In this document: piece after piece, positions 17,688-25,132 of the stretch
Position numbering within the stretch: the first letter of the stretch is position 1
Layout of the letters: each line of letters starts with the position of its first letter
Source: Microcystis aeruginosa Ma_MB_S_20031200_S102
GTDB taxonomy: Bacteria; Cyanobacteriota; Cyanobacteriia; Cyanobacteriales; Microcystaceae
Length of the DNA: 33,372 nt
Direction of reading: 5' to 3'
Assembly (NCBI GenBank): GCA_007095845.1
Contig: SFBI01000123.1
Location: forward strand, 1 to 33,372
Made by a program: the position numbers and the translations under genes
Notes under the pieces: model-generated
Told to the model about the DNA's origin: nothing
Databases searched by the model: none
What the model saw: only the letters and a program-made list of their open reading frames with translations

Positions 17688-20312
17688 ATGTCTTTTGTCG
17701 GTTTACATATTCACAGTGATTATAGCTTACTTGATGGTGCTTCCCAATTACCGGCACTAATTGATCGAGCGATCGAATTAGGACAAACAGCGATCGCTTT
17801 AACCGATCATGGAGTCATGTATGGTGCGATCGAATTAATTAAAACCTGTCGTAATAAGGGAATAAAACCAATTATTGGCAATGAAATGTATGTAGTTAAT
17901 GGTGATATTGAAGTCAATCTTCGCCACCGAAAATATCATCAAGTTGTTCTAGCAAAAAATACCCAAGGCTATAAAAATCTGGTTAAATTAACTACTATTT
18001 CTAATCTGAAAGGTATTCAAGGTAAAGGCATTTTTGCTCGTCCTTGTATCAATAAAGAGTTACTCCAACAATATCACGAAGGATTGATAGTTACCAGTGC
18101 TTGCTTAGGTGGAGAGATTCCCCAAGCAATTTTAGCTAATAACAGAAAATTGGCTAAGGAAACTGCTAAATGGTATAAAAAACTTTTTGGTGATGATTTT
18201 TATTTAGAAATTCAAGATCACGGTTCTAAAGAAGATCGGATTGTTAATGTAGAAATAGTTAAAATTGCTAAAGAATTAGGAATCAAAGTAGTTGCTACTA
18301 ACGATTCTCACTTTATTTCCTGTTACGATGTAGAAGCACACGATGCCTTACTTTGTATTCAAACTGGCAAGTTAATTACTGAAGATAAACGCCTCCGTTA
18401 TAGCGGCACAGAATACTTAAAATCTGCTGATGAAATGCGTTTACTTTTCCGTGATCATCTGCCAGAAGATGTGATTGAAGAAGCGATTAATAACACCTTA
18501 GAAGTAGCAGAAAAAGTTGAACCCTATAACATATTTAATGAACCAAGACTACCTAACTATCCAGTTCCTGCGGGACATACTGCTGATAGTTATGTAGAAG
18601 AAATTGCTTGGTTAGGATTACTAGAAAGATTAAAATGTCCTTCTCGTCACGAAATTGAAACTACTTACAAAGAAAGGCTAGAATACGAATTAAAAATGTT
18701 ACAGAAAATGGGATTTTCTACCTATTTTCTCGTGGTTTGGGACTATATAAAATATGCTAGAGATCATGATATTCCCGTCGGTCCAGGACGCGGTTCTGCG
18801 GCGGGTTCTTTGGTAGCATATTCTTTAAAAATAACTAATATTGATCCCGTTCATCACGGTTTATTATTTGAGCGTTTTCTCAATCCTGAACGGAAATCTA
18901 TGCCTGATATTGATACGGATTTCTGTATCGAGAGACGGGATGAAATGATCCAATACGTCACGGAAAAATATGGGGAAGCTAATGTTGCCCAAATCATTAC
19001 TTTTAACCGCATGACATCAAAAGCTGTCTTAAAAGATGTGGCGCGGGTGTTAGATATTCCCTACGCTGAATCGGATAAAATGGCGAAAATGATTCCCGTT
19101 TCTCGCGGTAAACCCACACCTTTAAAAGTGATGATTTCTGATGAAACTCCCGAACCAGCATTTAAAGAAAGATACGATACGGAACCCCATGTGCGTCATT
19201 GGTTAGATATGGCAATTCGGATCGAAGGTACTAACAAAACCTTCGGAGTTCATGCTGCGGGAGTCGTCATTTCCTCCCAACCTTTAGATGAAGTGGTTCC
19301 CCTCCAGAAAAATAATGATGGAGCGGTAATTACCCAATACTTTATGGAGGATTTAGAATCATTAGGATTGTTAAAAATGGACTTTTTAGGGTTAAGAAAT
19401 TTAACCACTTTGAAAAAAACCGCCGACTTAATTAAACAAAATCAGGGCATAGATATTGATCTTGATCAATTGCCTTTAGATGAAAGAAAAGCCCTGCAAA
19501 TTCGGTCTAAAGGGGAACATAAAAAACTACCTCCCGATATTCTTAAAACCCACGGATTGCTAGAAGAAGGGGATTTAGAAGGTATTTTCCAGTTAGAATC
19601 ATCGGGGATGAAACAGATCGTTAAAGAGTTAAAACCATCGGGTATTGAGGACATATCTTCAATCCTAGCACTCTATCGCCCCGGTCCTTTAGATGCGGGA
19701 TTAATTCCCCTCTTTATTGGTAGAAAACACGGTAAAGAACCCATTCGTTATGATCATCCTTTATTGGAACCAATTCTTAAAGAAACCTACGCGGTTTTAG
19801 TCTATCAAGAACAGATCATGAAAATGGCGCAGGATTTAGCGGGTTATTCCCTAGGAGAAGCGGATCTATTGCGTCGAGCAATGGGTAAGAAAAAAGCCTC
19901 CGAAATGCAGAAACAAAGGGAGATGTTTATCGATGGTGCTGCTAAAAATGGTGTGGAAAAAAGAATCGCTGAAAATCTCTTTGAACAGATGGTAAATTTT
20001 GCCGAATATTGTCTAGGAGGTCAGACGTTAATTTTAACTGAGGAATACGGATTATTGCCAATCGCTAAAATTGTAAGCGAAGAAATTAACTGCACTGTTT
20101 ATAGTGTAGATAAAAATGGTTTTATATATAGTCAACCGATCACCCAATGGCACGAGCGAGGTTTACAAGAAGTCTTTGAATATACCCTAGAAAATGGGCA
20201 AACTATCCAAGCAACCAAAGATCATAAATTTATGACTAGCGATGGAGAAATGTTAGCCATAGATACAATATTTGAGCGAGGTTTAGATTTAAAATCCTCT
20301 GATTTTTCCTAA
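17688..20312 (+). CDS. dnaE-N: DNA polymerase III alpha subunit, N-terminal part, fused to DnaE split-intein N half
   Basis: The replicative polymerase is encoded in two pieces in many cyanobacteria and joined by protein trans-splicing. Residues 1-774 are the N-extein: PHP domain ([21 protein letters not shown]7/H9), palm with [14 protein letters not shown] (D407, D409) and D565 in [10 protein letters not shown], which form the catalytic triad, then [18 protein letters not shown] and [12 protein letters not shown]. The N-extein ends NFAEY. Residue C775 starts the 100-residue intein N half (20010-20309), which ends KSSDFS before the TAA. The matching dnaE-C with intein C half is not in this window and should lie elsewhere on the chromosome. 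The total of 874 aa is as expected for such a precursor. Confidence 0.97.
20010..20309 (+). other. DnaE split intein, N-terminal fragment
   Basis: The fragment has splicing block [19 protein letters not shown] (nucleophile Cys1), and block [13 protein letters not shown] with the conserved TxxH (Thr69-His72 of the intein). [14 protein letters not shown] and [13 protein letters not shown] lie between them. There is no endonuclease domain. It agrees closely with the naturally split DnaE inteins of cyanobacteria (Npu, Ssp) and, from memory, with the Microcystis one. Positions 3-4 are GG, where Npu has SY and Ssp has SF. Confidence 0.96.
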
Positions 20313-20608: not shown

Positions 20609-20881
20609 AACGAGATTTTTTTTTATTTTTAAAAACTGAGTTTTTCACAGGGTTGCAGAGATGACATTTTTAGGGTAGCAAAAAGACGCTACTTTAAGGA
20701 TGAATTCATTCACCCCGTTTACATCTTTAGGAAATTGATTCTTATGGAACTCCAGTTTTAACGGTCAAAACTATTCAGTTTCATATTTTGTTCCTCTCTT
20801 GATGAGTTTTTGTTCGGCAAACCCTATATAATTAAACTTTGGATAATTTATCTCACCATATTTCTTGACCGCAAAAAACTG

Positions 20882-21517
20882 ATGTCCTCTTTACTCTCCG
20901 CTATTCCCCTCGATGCGATCGCTTATAATGCACAGGGTTTAGTACCAGCGATCGCTCAAGACTATCTTGATGCTACAGTTTTAATGATGGCTTGGATGAA
21001 TCGGGAATCTCTCGAAAAAACTCTTACCACTGGGGAAGCGTGGTACTGGAGTCGTTCCCGTCAAGAATTATGGCACAAAGGAGCCACCTCAGGCCATATC
21101 CAAAAAGTGCATCAAATTCGCTACGATTGCGATAGTGATGCTATCTTGCTGACTATTGAGCAAATTGGTGATATCGCCTGTCATACTGGCGAAAGAAGCT
21201 GTTTTCACCAAGTAAATTCGCAAAAATCACCGCCAGCGGCCGACACCCTCTCGGAATTGTTTAAAGTAATTTGCGATCGCAGAGACGATCCTTATCCGGA
21301 ATCCTATACCTGTAAACTTTTGGCCGGAGGAGATAACAAAATTCTCAAGAAAATCGGCGAAGAATCGGCAGAAGTGGTCATGGCCTGCAAAGATAATGAT
21401 GGCGATGCTATTGCCTCAGAAGTGGCCGATCTTTTCTATCATACCCTCGTTGCCCTCGTCTATCATCAAGTCCCCCTGCGAGATGTCTATAAAAAACTGC
21501 AAGACCGGCGCCGGTAA
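20882..21517 (+). CDS. hisIE: bifunctional phosphoribosyl-AMP cyclohydrolase / phosphoribosyl-ATP pyrophosphatase
   Basis: HisIE carries out steps 2 and 3 of histidine synthesis. The ATG at 20882 ([19 protein letters not shown]) gives 211 residues; a longer in-frame start at 20810 adds only non-conserved hydrophobic residues. The HisI domain (about 1-110) has [38 protein letters not shown], and the metal sites DCDSDAILL and [11 protein letters not shown]. The HisE domain (about 115-211) has [29 protein letters not shown] and [14 protein letters not shown]. Both domains look intact. The next gene begins 83 nt downstream on the same strand. Confidence 0.95.
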
Positions 21518-21541
21518 TCAGTAATCAGTTATTGGTTATCA
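21515..21541. repeat. TAATCAG/TTATCAG repeat remnant at the hisIE 3' end
   Basis: Immediately at the hisIE stop lies TAATCAGTAATCAGTTATTGGTTATC, followed by AGATTTGAGTTTTT. It is the same repeat vocabulary as at 8781-8842. It explains why the longest in-frame start of the next gene (TTG at 21532) is not credible: it would translate this repeat. Confidence 0.6.
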
Positions 21542-21600
21542 GATTTGAGTTTTTACTGTTAATTTTCCGACTCCTGAATACTGTCTCCTACTTTATATTT

Positions 21601-22986
21601 GTGGTTTACGACTTAGTAATTATCGGTGCCGCTCCTGCGGCGAAAGAAGCAGCTTTGTTGGCTGTTCACCTCAAAAAAAGGGTGGCTTTAGTGCAACAGC
21701 CTTCTAGGGACAATTTAGAGGCATCTGAAGACATTTTTAGCAGGGGATACAGCCAAATTATTCATCTCTATAAACTGCTTAATTATTGGCAAAAAACGAC
21801 CATTTATCCCCAATGGCAACGGTTGCGGGAATGGCTAGAGGAAGTAGATAAAACTATTAATAAATATCATTCTTTGGCAAGATTAGCCACGGAAGGAATA
21901 GATGTGATATCGGGTGGGGGAGAATTTGTCCGGTTGCCCCATTTAGGATTCGTGGTTAACGGTCGGCAATTATTGGCTAAACACTATATTATTGCCACGG
22001 ATTTTTATCCGCAAGTACCGAAAATTTTAGGCTTAGATGAAGTTAATTATTTTACCGCTCAAAACCTTTGGCAAGAGCCAAATTTAGACAATTTAGGACA
22101 ACATTTAGCAATTATTGGTAACAGCAGCATGGCTGTGAGTTTGTCCCAAATTCTCCGACGTTTGGGGAAAGAAATTAGCTTAATTATCGAGGATAATTAT
22201 CTACTACCAGATATTGATCGGGAAATTTCCCATTTAGTTACTGCCATTTTAGAAGCGGAAGGAATTAAGATTTTACCAGGCTATTGTCCTAGTCAAGTGA
22301 AAGCGATCGAGGGTAAAAAATGGTTACAATTAGGCAATCGTGTTATCGAAGTTGATGATCTCATTTTTGCTGGTAATTATCAAGTCGATGAACGGGGATT
22401 AAATTTGGCTGGAGTTGGAGTTAAACTAGAGCAAGGATTAATTAGGGTTAATCAGCAATTACAAACCGATAATTCTCGCATTTATGCTCTAAATTTGCTC
22501 AGAAATAATTATCCCGATCCTACTTTAAATCACCGGGCTGCTTTTGGGTTAGTCAAGCATCTGCTCACGGGAGAAAAATTTAACTTTAATCCCCAGCAAA
22601 TTCCCTCATTTATTGTTTTTGATCCGACTATTGCTTGGGTGGGTTTAACCGAAAAAGCAGCCCAGGACAGCTATGGTGAGGAGGTAAAGATGATCAACTA
22701 TCCCATCAAAAATATGGTTCCCCAGCAAATCTGGGGAGAAACCACAGGATTTTGTCAATTAATCTACCGACAAGATGGTAAAATACTAGGAGCGCAAATA
22801 GTCGGTAATCAAGCGGCAGAAATGATTAGTATCATCAGTTTAGCTTTGCAAGAAAATTTAACCATACAATCCCTAAATAAAAATATTTATACCTGGGGAA
22901 GTATGGGAGAGATGATCGGAGAAATGACCCAATTAATCCCCCAGAAAAAATCTTGGTTAACTTGGCTAAAAAAATTATTTAGATAA
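21601..22986 (+). CDS. degenerate pyridine nucleotide-disulfide oxidoreductase family protein
   Basis: From the GTG at 21601 this is 461 residues with the overall plan of dihydrolipoamide dehydrogenase/mercuric reductase: FAD domain (1-155), NAD domain (about 165-285), and C-terminal dimerisation domain (about 345-461, from SFIVFDPTIAWVGLTEKAAQ). Key residues differ. The FAD motif GxGxxG reads GAAPAA (9-14), the CxxxxC redox disulfide is absent where EASEDIFSRGYSQ stands, the NAD motif reads GNSSMA (173-178), and the C-terminal HPTxxE motif reads YTWGSMGE. It therefore probably lacks disulfide chemistry and may bind cofactors weakly or serve as a scaffold. It lies 24 nt before the tmk-like gene, so it is likely co-transcribed. 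The start is chosen because upstream codons fall in repeat DNA. Confidence 0.75.
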   Translation: MVYDLVIIGAAPAAKEAALLAVHLKKRVALVQQPSRDNLEASEDIFSRGYSQIIHLYKLLNYWQKTTIYPQWQRLREWLEEVDKTINKYHSLARLATEGIDVISGGGEFVRLPHLGFVVNGRQLLAKHYIIATDFYPQVPKILGLDEVNYFTAQNLWQEPNLDNLGQHLAIIGNSSMAVSLSQILRRLGKEISLIIEDNYLLPDIDREISHLVTAILEAEGIKILPGYCPSQVKAIEGKKWLQLGNRVIEVDDLIFAGNYQVDERGLNLAGVGVKLEQGLIRVNQQLQTDNSRIYALNLLRNNYPDPTLNHRAAFGLVKHLLTGEKFNFNPQQIPSFIVFDPTIAWVGLTEKAAQDSYGEEVKMINYPIKNMVPQQIWGETTGFCQLIYRQDGKILGAQIVGNQAAEMISIISLALQENLTIQSLNKNIYTWGSMGEMIGEMTQLIPQKKSWLTWLKKLFR

Positions 22987-23010: not shown

Positions 23011-23634
23011 ATGAAACCGAAATTTATTGTCTTTGAAGGTATTGATGGATCGGGAACAAGTACCCAAGCAAAACTCCTACAAGAATATTTTTTAAAACGA
23101 GGGGAAAAAGCAGTTTTAAGTCCCGAACCTTCCGAGGGTGTCATCGGTCGTTTGATTCGAGAAATAATGCAAACTAATCTTATTTATATCGAAGATCAAA
23201 ATAAATTTGATCAACAAATGGCCTATTTATTTGCAGCCGATCGCCATTATCACTTATATAATGATCACGATGGTGTTTTCAAACTTATTCACCAAGAACA
23301 AACCCATGTGATCACTACTCGTTATTATTTTTCTTCCCTGGCCTATAATTGCAATAATTCCGAAGAATTTGCTTTTGTTCAGCAGTTAAATCAGCATTTT
23401 CCCAATCCAGATTTAGTCATTTATATCGATGTTATTCCTGATATTTCTCTAGCAAGAATTAAAAACCGAGCCATCACAGAAGTGTACGAAAAACAAGAAA
23501 AATTAATGAAAGTTCGTCAGATGTTTCTCAATATATTTAAAGAATATAAAGATAATTGTTTACAACTGGATGGCAGTGATACAATAGAACAGCTTCACCA
23601 AAATATTATTAATTATCTTGAACAATTAATTTAA
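23011..23634 (+). CDS. tmk: dTMP kinase family protein with atypical P-loop
   Basis: The family phosphorylates dTMP to dTDP. The 207 residues begin MKPKFIVFEGIDGSGTSTQ. The P-loop (GIDGSGTS, 10-17) has Thr16 where the usual GSGKS/T has Lys. Other blocks are present: SPEPSEGVIGRLIREIM (EP substrate motif), AADRHYHL, TTRYYFSSLAYN (a variant of DRYxxSxxAY with Thr for Asp) and DLVIYIDVIPDISLARIKNR. The Arg-rich lid is weak. The start lies 24 nt after the flavoprotein-like gene and the stop is 4 nt before the MtrA/ThyA-like gene, so translation is probably coupled. It may be a dTMP kinase or a kinase for a related deoxynucleotide. Confidence 0.8.
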   Translation: MKPKFIVFEGIDGSGTSTQAKLLQEYFLKRGEKAVLSPEPSEGVIGRLIREIMQTNLIYIEDQNKFDQQMAYLFAADRHYHLYNDHDGVFKLIHQEQTHVITTRYYFSSLAYNCNNSEEFAFVQQLNQHFPNPDLVIYIDVIPDISLARIKNRAITEVYEKQEKLMKVRQMFLNIFKEYKDNCLQLDGSDTIEQLHQNIINYLEQLI

Positions 23635-23638
23635 ATCC

Positions 23639-25132
23639 ATGCTTAGTATAGAAACCACCCCTAAATTCACCTACCAACCCCACTATAAACCCAATCAATT
23701 AATCTGCGGTCACGGACAAACAGCAATTATCACGGGATGGACAGTAAAACAGTCCCTTGCTAAACATTTAAATCCTGACCAATACGCAGTGATTGGCAAT
23801 CTTTATAGTCCCACTAGAGGAATTAGTCCCCTGCTGAGAAACTTAATCGCAAATCCCCACGTTAGATACTTAGTTATTCTCAACGCTACAAAGGAAGATA
23901 AAAATTCTGGTAGCTGTCAATGTTTGCTAGACTTTTTTAGTCAAGGATTTCAGCTAGGGAAAAGTGATACAGGTCGAGAATGTTGGCTAATTAGTTCTCC
24001 CATCACGGGATATATTGACCAAGAAATTGACCGAGAAACTCTCGAAAAATTACGTCAATCGATTCAATATCAACTGGTTAAATCTATCTCAGAAGCGATT
24101 GAAACTGTCAAAAATTATGCAGCACAATCACCCCTACCAACTTGGGGAGAACCATTAATCTTTCCCCTCTTAGAAAATCTTCCTTCCCTCCTACCCGGAA
24201 CAAGATACGGTCATCGCATTGAAGGAAAAACTATTGCTGAAACTTGGGTGAAAATTCTCCAAAAAATTAAAACCACTGGCACAATTAGACCCACAGGATA
24301 TGATGGTAAATGGCAAGAATTAATTGACTTAATGGCCGTTGTCACCGATGAACCCCTAGACTTTTATTTTCCCGAACCTAATTATTTACCTATAGACAGA
24401 GCTTTTCTTACCGAATATATCGGACAAATTCTCGATGATTCCCCTATACACCAAGGAGTTAAATACACCTACGGTCAAAGATTACGCTCTTGGTTTGGAC
24501 GAGATCAAATTGCACAGGTTATTAATAAATTAATCTCAGAAATTGACGCAGCCAGTGCAGTTATGTCCCTCTGGGATGTGAAAGACCACGAAAAAGGAGG
24601 TAGTCCCTGTCTAAATCATATTTGGGTGCGAGTGGTGGAAAATGAATTATCTCTCACCGCAATATTTAGAAGTAATGATATGTTTGCAGCTTGGCCAGCA
24701 AACGCTATGGGATTACGCGCTTTACAGCAATATATTAGGAATGAGATTAGCAAGCAATCTGACTACAATTTATCAATAGGTCCATTGATTACTATCAGTC
24801 AATCGGCCCATATATACGATGATACTTGGGAAAATGTTGAACGATTAATCGCCACCCAGTACGATAAGATTATCAATCAGCGTGATTTTTTTGACCCTAG
24901 CGGTAACTTTTTGATTTCCGTGGAAGAAGAACAAATTCTCGTCCAACAAACTACCCCCGGCAGTGGGGAAATTGTCGCTTGTTATCAGGGCAAAAATCCC
25001 CTAAAATTAATTCGCGAGCTTGCTGCCACCAATCCGGCAATTATTCCCGAACATATCGGTTATCTGGGAATCGAGTTACAAAAAGCATACAATTGTCTCA
25101 AGAATAATCAACCATATATGCAAGACCAGTAG
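23639..25132 (+). CDS. MtrA-like domain fused to thymidylate-synthase-like domain
   Basis: This 497-residue protein has two recognisable parts. Residues 18-150 resemble subunit A of methanogen tetrahydromethanopterin S-methyltransferase: AVIGNLYSPTRGISPLLRNL, IANPHVRYLVIL and ISSPITGYIDQEIDRETLEK line up with MtrA, but the cobalt-ligand His is not seen. Residues about 190-420 resemble ThyA: YTYGQRLRSW, then SPCLNH with the catalytic-type Cys324, FRSNDMF (344-349, the RSxDxF motif), PAN (Asn355, equivalent to E. coli N177) and HIY (391-393, the HxY motif). The Arg pair that binds dUMP phosphate across the dimer is replaced by Ala-Ser (305-306). It starts 4 nt after tmk, so a role in deoxypyrimidine metabolism is likely. 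The exact reaction is unknown. Confidence 0.8.
   Translation: MLSIETTPKFTYQPHYKPNQLICGHGQTAIITGWTVKQSLAKHLNPDQYAVIGNLYSPTRGISPLLRNLIANPHVRYLVILNATKEDKNSGSCQCLLDFFSQGFQLGKSDTGRECWLISSPITGYIDQEIDRETLEKLRQSIQYQLVKSISEAIETVKNYAAQSPLPTWGEPLIFPLLENLPSLLPGTRYGHRIEGKTIAETWVKILQKIKTTGTIRPTGYDGKWQELIDLMAVVTDEPLDFYFPEPNYLPIDRAFLTEYIGQILDDSPIHQGVKYTYGQRLRSWFGRDQIAQVINKLISEIDAASAVMSLWDVKDHEKGGSPCLNHIWVRVVENELSLTAIFRSNDMFAAWPANAMGLRALQQYIRNEISKQSDYNLSIGPLITISQSAHIYDDTWENVERLIATQYDKIINQRDFFDPSGNFLISVEEEQILVQQTTPGSGEIVACYQGKNPLKLIRELAATNPAIIPEHIGYLGIELQKAYNCLKNNQPYMQDQ

Follow-up and report, generated by a model that had tools for sequence, protein, structure and literature searches.

A three-domain thymidylate synthase fusion very probably serves Microcystis aeruginosa as dTMP synthase in place of ThyX

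Introduction

What does a protein that joins an MtrA-like domain to a thymidylate synthase domain do in Microcystis? The question is raised by contig SFBI01000123.1 of Microcystis aeruginosa Ma_MB_S_20031200_S102, whose 33,372 nucleotides are the window analyzed here. A first-pass annotation, made from the letters alone, described a fusion of MtrA-like and ThyA-like parts at 23639..25132 (forward strand, 497 amino acids). It suggested that the fusion transfers a one-carbon unit to a uracil-type deoxynucleotide and that the upstream kinase acts on the product. From comparisons of sequences and genomes, we conclude that the fusion very probably acts as the organism's deoxythymidine monophosphate (dTMP) synthase and does the work for which most cyanobacteria use the flavin-dependent ThyX. 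Synthesis of dTMP is essential, and a bloom-forming genus and 32 of 291 sampled cyanobacterial genomes (about one in ten) seem to use this three-domain enzyme.

Results

In the window's genome (99.7% complete), the ThyA family PF00303 is matched once, by the fusion. The annotation had asked whether thyX or another thyA is present. PF02511 (ThyX) has no match anywhere in this genome, the fusion included, and no second ThyA-family gene was found; PF00265 thymidine kinase has no match there either. Among the 291 genomes of the class, PF00303 is matched in 36 and PF02511 in 243 (238 over its cut-off), while 14 have neither by arithmetic. Both are matched in two genomes, G400 (8% contamination) and G564 (4% contamination).

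A genome was counted as a fusion genome when its PF00303 frame has at least 498 amino acids, which holds for 32 of the 36 matching genomes; the search across cyanobacteria proposed by the annotation finds the fusion in some genera other than Microcystis. Twenty-seven of the 32 fusions align with the window protein over at least 474 residues, three further ones (G387, G465, G039) were counted with domain 1 present, and G099 and G564 by frame length alone. The four genomes left out are G563 and G581, which are incomplete and carry a more canonical ThyA, G400, with a ThyA-family frame of 359 amino acids, and G455, where the fusion is apparently split over contigs. The fusion and ThyX are nearly mutually exclusive among cyanobacterial genomes: they occur together in one of the 32 fusion genomes (G564), against about 27 expected under independence. 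The COG table in the available part of PMC5954106 gives ThyX in 23 and ThyA in eight of 31 cyanobacteria, a split which resembles ours.

The annotated reading frame of 497 amino acids is real, and its MtrA-like and ThyA parts stand, but a third, C-terminal domain had been overlooked. The three domains, all on the forward strand, are an MtrA-like Rossmann domain lacking the cobalt-ligand His (residues 4-177, 23648..24169), a methanogen-type ThyA domain (residues 187-413, 24197..24877) and a PterinBD-DUF4346 domain (residues 419-496, 24893..25126). The ThyA similarity on which the annotation depended is recovered by profile search, PF00303 scoring 55.4 bits against a cut-off of 24.3, with only positions 91-225 of 266 aligned. 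The best NCBIfam match of the middle domain is TIGR03283 (E 2.3e-38), whose curated cut-off is not reached (131.7 bits versus 174.55).

Domain 1 stays below the Pfam cut-off for MtrA (PF04208, 16.9 bits versus 25), and its predicted model is consistent with the MtrA fold. The MtrA scores were taken from the first, weaker of two predicted models because the PDB list of the second was filled by ThyA folds. When predicted viral structures were searched with the first model, no match described as this fusion appeared among the best 50 listed, which were single-domain thymidylate synthases and deoxycytidine monophosphate (dCMP) hydroxymethylases. Domain 1 is found in 18 of 145 genomes, namely 16 with intact fusions, G455 with the broken one, and G422. 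The G422 match (C35:41374-41718, E 1.1e-4) is weak, lies in a 385-residue frame and comes from a genome without a counted fusion.

Domain 3 matches the PterinBD-DUF4346 profile with 71.5 bits against a cut-off of 29.6; its pterin binding is putative and taken only from the name of the Pfam model. A PDB sequence search gave it no convincing relative, the single match having an E value of 0.085. Standalone DUF4346 proteins (e.g. G000:C184:98021-98338), in frames mostly of about 125-150 amino acids, are matched in 186 of 386 genomes of the phylum, and of the 20 listed genomes without a match, G195 alone belongs to the same order or class. Such a protein seems to be present in nearly every photosynthetic cyanobacterium.

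We compared the catalytic residues in 165 aligned rows, with the correspondence to ThyA taken from PDB alignments and Glu227 matched to Glu58 by eye; E. coli ThyA numbers are used for comparison. Glu227, Tyr278, Cys324 (codon 24608-24610), Arg344, Ser345, Asn346, Asp347, Asn355 (codon 24701-24703, like that of Cys324 within the ThyA domain on the forward strand), His391 and Tyr393 do not vary in any row. The ThyA signature of catalytic Cys, Arg-Ser-x-Asp, Asn177-type Asn, His-x-Tyr and Glu58-type Glu is therefore present in all 165. Asp347 matches Asp169, presumably the pterin-side residue of ordinary ThyA.

Ser345 and Asn355 are spaced ten residues apart, as are Ser167 and Asn177 in E. coli numbers. 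According to the part of PMC5175136 available to us, MilA and BcmA carry Ala in place of the Ser of deoxyribosyl enzymes and Asp in place of the Asn of uracil enzymes. By this rule the fusion would be of the dUMP (deoxyuridine monophosphate) type, which supports the earlier suggestion that Asn355 marks a uracil-type base rather than cytosine. MilA/BcmA enzymes carry Lys133 instead of an active-site Arg; this region aligns with Ala305/Ser306, where no Lys occurs among the letters listed.

The cobalt-ligand pair of MtrA finds no counterpart in domain 1. According to the available part of PMC4915002, cobalt in MtrA is ligated by His84 together with Glu54, and the residues contacting the nucleotide tail include Thr53, Gly57 and Asn64. 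The loop matching His84 (residues 82-99) has no His in 163 of 165 rows and any His in two, while Asp87 (165/165) and Asn89 (160/165) are kept. Position 58, matched by eye to Glu54, is Pro, Ala, Ser or Cys. The His84/Glu54 pair is absent, so the corrinoid role drawn from the MtrA likeness is unsupported, and a His-on cobamide in domain 1 appears unlikely. The tail-pocket letters are retained by alignment and by eye (Ser57 in 161, Gly61 and Asn68 in all 165 rows), and domain 1 may be able to bind something in this pocket.

In some Nostocales, one and the same chromosomal slot is filled either by the fusion or by ThyX. The comparison covered 69 named fusion loci and 38 ThyX loci picked by hand; flank lengths are unequal, being full in 42 of the 69. 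Nostocales fusion loci (e.g. L012, L018, L025) read aroA, cl53, redoxin, fusion, dcd-like, dCMP deaminase, cobO, adk, pnp. ThyX loci L215 and L217 read aroA (a 49% fragment match in L217), cl53, redoxin, thyX, dcd-like (in L215), dcd, cobO, adk, pnp. The labels stand for the Pfam names EPSP synthase, AhpC/TSA-redoxin, DCD, CobO/BtuR, adenylate kinase and RNase PH-domain protein, and cl53 has no Pfam match. The redoxin/aroA side is common to five of the 38 ThyX loci (L214-L218), and L219 has the dcd-cobO-adk-pnp side with a MerA-like oxidoreductase upstream, as at fusion loci; most of the 38 have neither side.

Genes of the dTMP pathway are frequent around the fusion. dCMP deaminase is found at 43 of 69 fusion loci versus none of the 38 ThyX loci, dcd-like at 23 versus one, and canonical dcd at nine versus seven. 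In 43 loci chosen from the 69, dCMP deaminase lies at most four open reading frames from the fusion in 28 and a deoxycytidine triphosphate (dCTP)-deaminase-like gene in 22. The window's tmk, encoding the dTMP kinase (23011..23634, forward strand), stops 4 nucleotides upstream of the fusion. The annotation had treated this pairing as part of the system and named its absence in relatives as refuting; this point applies, tmk being present at nine of 69 fusion loci versus none of 38 ThyX loci, and the pairing is not a feature of the family. The nine are seven Microcystis loci, Gomphosphaeria L008, and L068, all among the 61 loci with at least 1.5 kb upstream; of the 42 with full flanks, four have tmk. 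Where it is missing, other dTMP-pathway genes often stand instead.

At the cut-offs used, canonical dCTP deaminase (Dcd, 223 of 291 genomes) and dCMP deaminase (56 of 291) look largely alternative across cyanobacteria. Among the 32 fusion genomes each is found in 16, with both in one of these and neither in one; the window's genome has dCMP deaminase on contig 83 and no Dcd match.

The gene for a MerA/Lpd-like flavin adenine dinucleotide (FAD) pyridine-nucleotide oxidoreductase (21532..22986, forward strand) precedes tmk and the fusion. Such a gene is found at 17 of 69 fusion loci versus one of 38 ThyX loci; it lies just upstream of the fusion in the window, L043, L046 and L055, and once, in L219, upstream of ThyX. 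Its recurrence may reflect a redox partner or plain synteny. The nearness of cobO (ATP:corrinoid adenosyltransferase; 28 of 69 fusion loci versus nine of 38 ThyX loci, L251-L253 of these nine being weak matches) was dropped as corrinoid support and read as old synteny, because cobO is also near ThyX and lies on the opposite strand in the shared slot. Elsewhere in the window, psbO directly follows the fusion, and 17688-20312 holds part of DnaE ending in an intein N-terminal splicing region, presumably the split DnaE intein of cyanobacteria. HisIE (20810..21517, forward strand) is a neighbor that also appears in the published putative bacimethrin cluster, as far as the available part of PMC12345177 goes.

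Viral copies of the fusion are also found. A scan of IMG/VR returned 84 relatives, of which 80 were kept with flanks of at most 5 kb; some of these contigs may derive from hosts or plasmids. NrdA is near 46, NrdB near 27 and RusA near 37 of the 80, and 42 of the 46 NrdA-bearing loci fall into a single group with at least 85% identity, leaving L170, L203, L205 and L213. Together with class I ribonucleotide reductase genes, the fusion makes up a nucleotide cassette in a group of uncultured viruses (L134-L213). dCMP deaminase directly follows the fusion in L134, which has a portal protein, and in L136; thymidylate kinase directly precedes it in L199, which has a phage-type DNA polymerase, and L195 has a tail-fibre-like protein. 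PHROG gave no match for four of ten viral-locus proteins in one set and three of ten in another, and none of the INPHARED phage records or plasmid records covers 80% of the fusion. The viral match range L198:5001-6474 contains five stop codons and is perhaps frameshifted. The starred branches of a quick tree force at least four changes between phage and cell; we claim no direction of transfer, because branches are long and 40 of 85 forks are open.

Discussion

What reaction is catalyzed, which folate is the donor and what domains 1 and 3 do are inferred as follows. Cys324 of the ThyA domain would attack dUMP, with the invariant Ser345 and Asn355 choosing a uracil-type substrate with a deoxyribosyl group. 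The one-carbon unit would come from a reduced folate, probably handled partly by the C-terminal pterin-binding domain, and dTMP would pass to Tmk, whose gene lies just upstream in Microcystis. Domain 1 is most likely a Rossmann domain that has been put to a new use, without His-ligated cobamide; it may have a structural role, bind a cofactor or take part in a redox step. Given the role as dTMP synthase, the likelier course in our view is ThyA chemistry that uses methylene-folate, with domain 3 assisting in pterin binding. The one-carbon transfer and product kinase proposed by the annotation are favored by the sole thymidylate synthase candidate, the invariant Ser/Asn and the dTMP-pathway neighbors. 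What weighs against an ordinary ThyA is the phosphate site. Arg126/Arg127 of the partner subunit, which bind phosphate in ThyA, are mostly replaced in the fusion by Ala305 (159/165) and, at position 306, by Ser (129/165), with Arg kept there in 35 of 165.

Another reading concerns the fate of dihydrofolate. By hand counts from match listings, strong matches to FolA-type dihydrofolate reductase (DHFR; PF00186, E < 1e-30) occur in six of the 32 fusion genomes, with two more weak, and in 27 of the 243 ThyX genomes; no FolA-type enzyme was found in 24 of the 32, FolM and other non-FolA types not being searched for. As a hint at unusual dihydrofolate handling this scarcity is suggestive only. We think it rather unlikely, but conceivable, that the enzyme hands out no dihydrofolate, its MtrA-like and pterin-binding domains forming an internal module that moves a methyl group from methyl-pterin through a His-off cobamide to dUMP or reduces bound dihydrofolate. 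The two additional domains have one-carbon or pterin kin, strong FolA matches are few though a plain ThyA should need DHFR, and the tail-pocket residues of MtrA are kept; the His84/Glu54 ligation of cobalt, however, is missing, and Asp347 on the presumed pterin side is invariant. Moreover, the available part of PMC1971073 describes cyanobacteria such as Prochlorococcus without recognizable DHFR, so other reductases must exist. FolA absence was rejected as proof of a mechanism without dihydrofolate, since most ThyX genomes also lack FolA and other reductases exist. We are similarly doubtful of the broader picture, in which a self-contained synthase never releasing dihydrofolate, with domain 3 holding the pterin, spread among cyanobacteria and viruses and was swapped into the thyX locus. 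If it were true, the cell could do without FAD-dependent ThyX and without a separate DHFR, and the MtrA-like domain would use a His-off cobamide as methyl carrier or feed electrons to bound dihydrofolate.

A different role has been proposed in print. PMC12345177 (mBio 2025), in its available part, draws a putative Microcystis cluster for bacimethrin, a thiamin antivitamin, with adjacent thymidylate synthase, thymidylate kinase, mercuric reductase and HisIE, the synthase appearing 50% larger than bacterial versions and sharing at most 30% homology with one. The window has the same order of these four genes, with psbO after the synthase, which differs from the drawing. The published synthase should be the fusion gene, because three genomes of the genus each have one ThyA-family match. 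With this gene run already published and ThyA already counted in the COG table, the locus was not undescribed, as the annotation had supposed; searches of the PMC library, which leaves out most subscription papers, turned up no account of the three-domain make-up. As the cytidine monophosphate (CMP) hydroxymethylase of bacimethrin synthesis, the fusion would be expected to resemble MilA and BcmA, yet it has Ser345/Asn355 where they have Ala/Asp. It is also the only thymidylate synthase candidate found in the genome, many other genera have its orthologues close to dCMP deaminase or in the slot of ThyX, and ribonucleotide reductase accompanies the viral copies. On sole-copy status, synteny and residues we regard bacimethrin as a very improbable main role; CMP hydroxymethylation is possible as a second, minor activity, and the kinase beside the synthase has its ordinary reading in dTMP synthesis. 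Our data do not question bacimethrin production by Microcystis, but argue against this gene as its CMP hydroxymethylase. Less probable still is a phage-spread hydroxymethylase or hydroxylase acting on dCMP or another base for hypermodified DNA precursors: Asn355, not Asp, is invariant, and the cellular copies replace ThyX in cells where no other thymidylate synthase was found.

With the fusion as dTMP synthase, its exchange with ThyX is visible in place on the chromosome. The finding touches the published bacimethrin gene assignment and provides a marker for a nucleotide cassette of uncultured viruses. It also prompts one to ask how fusion-bearing cells, most showing no FolA, recycle dihydrofolate.

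Among known systems, methanogen-type ThyA (TIGR03283) is the closest profile to the middle domain. The ThyA of Methanobacteriales virus vir249 (L234) shares the FRSND-(I/M)-F and S-SAHIY motifs with the fusion, but is a standalone protein of 230 amino acids without the MtrA-like and DUF4346 domains. MtrA, the corrinoid subunit of methyl-H4MPT:coenzyme M methyltransferase, differs in having the cobalt-ligand His and its Glu54 partner and in not being joined to ThyA. The standalone cyanobacterial DUF4346 proteins and the archaeal DHPS-like TIGR00284 resemble the C-terminal domain and lack a ThyA domain. The CMP hydroxymethylases MilA and BcmA have the ThyA fold, with Ala and Asp where the fusion has Ser and Asn. 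ThyX of most cyanobacteria is an unrelated protein; what it has in common with the fusion is the cellular role inferred for the latter and, among some Nostocales, the chromosomal slot.
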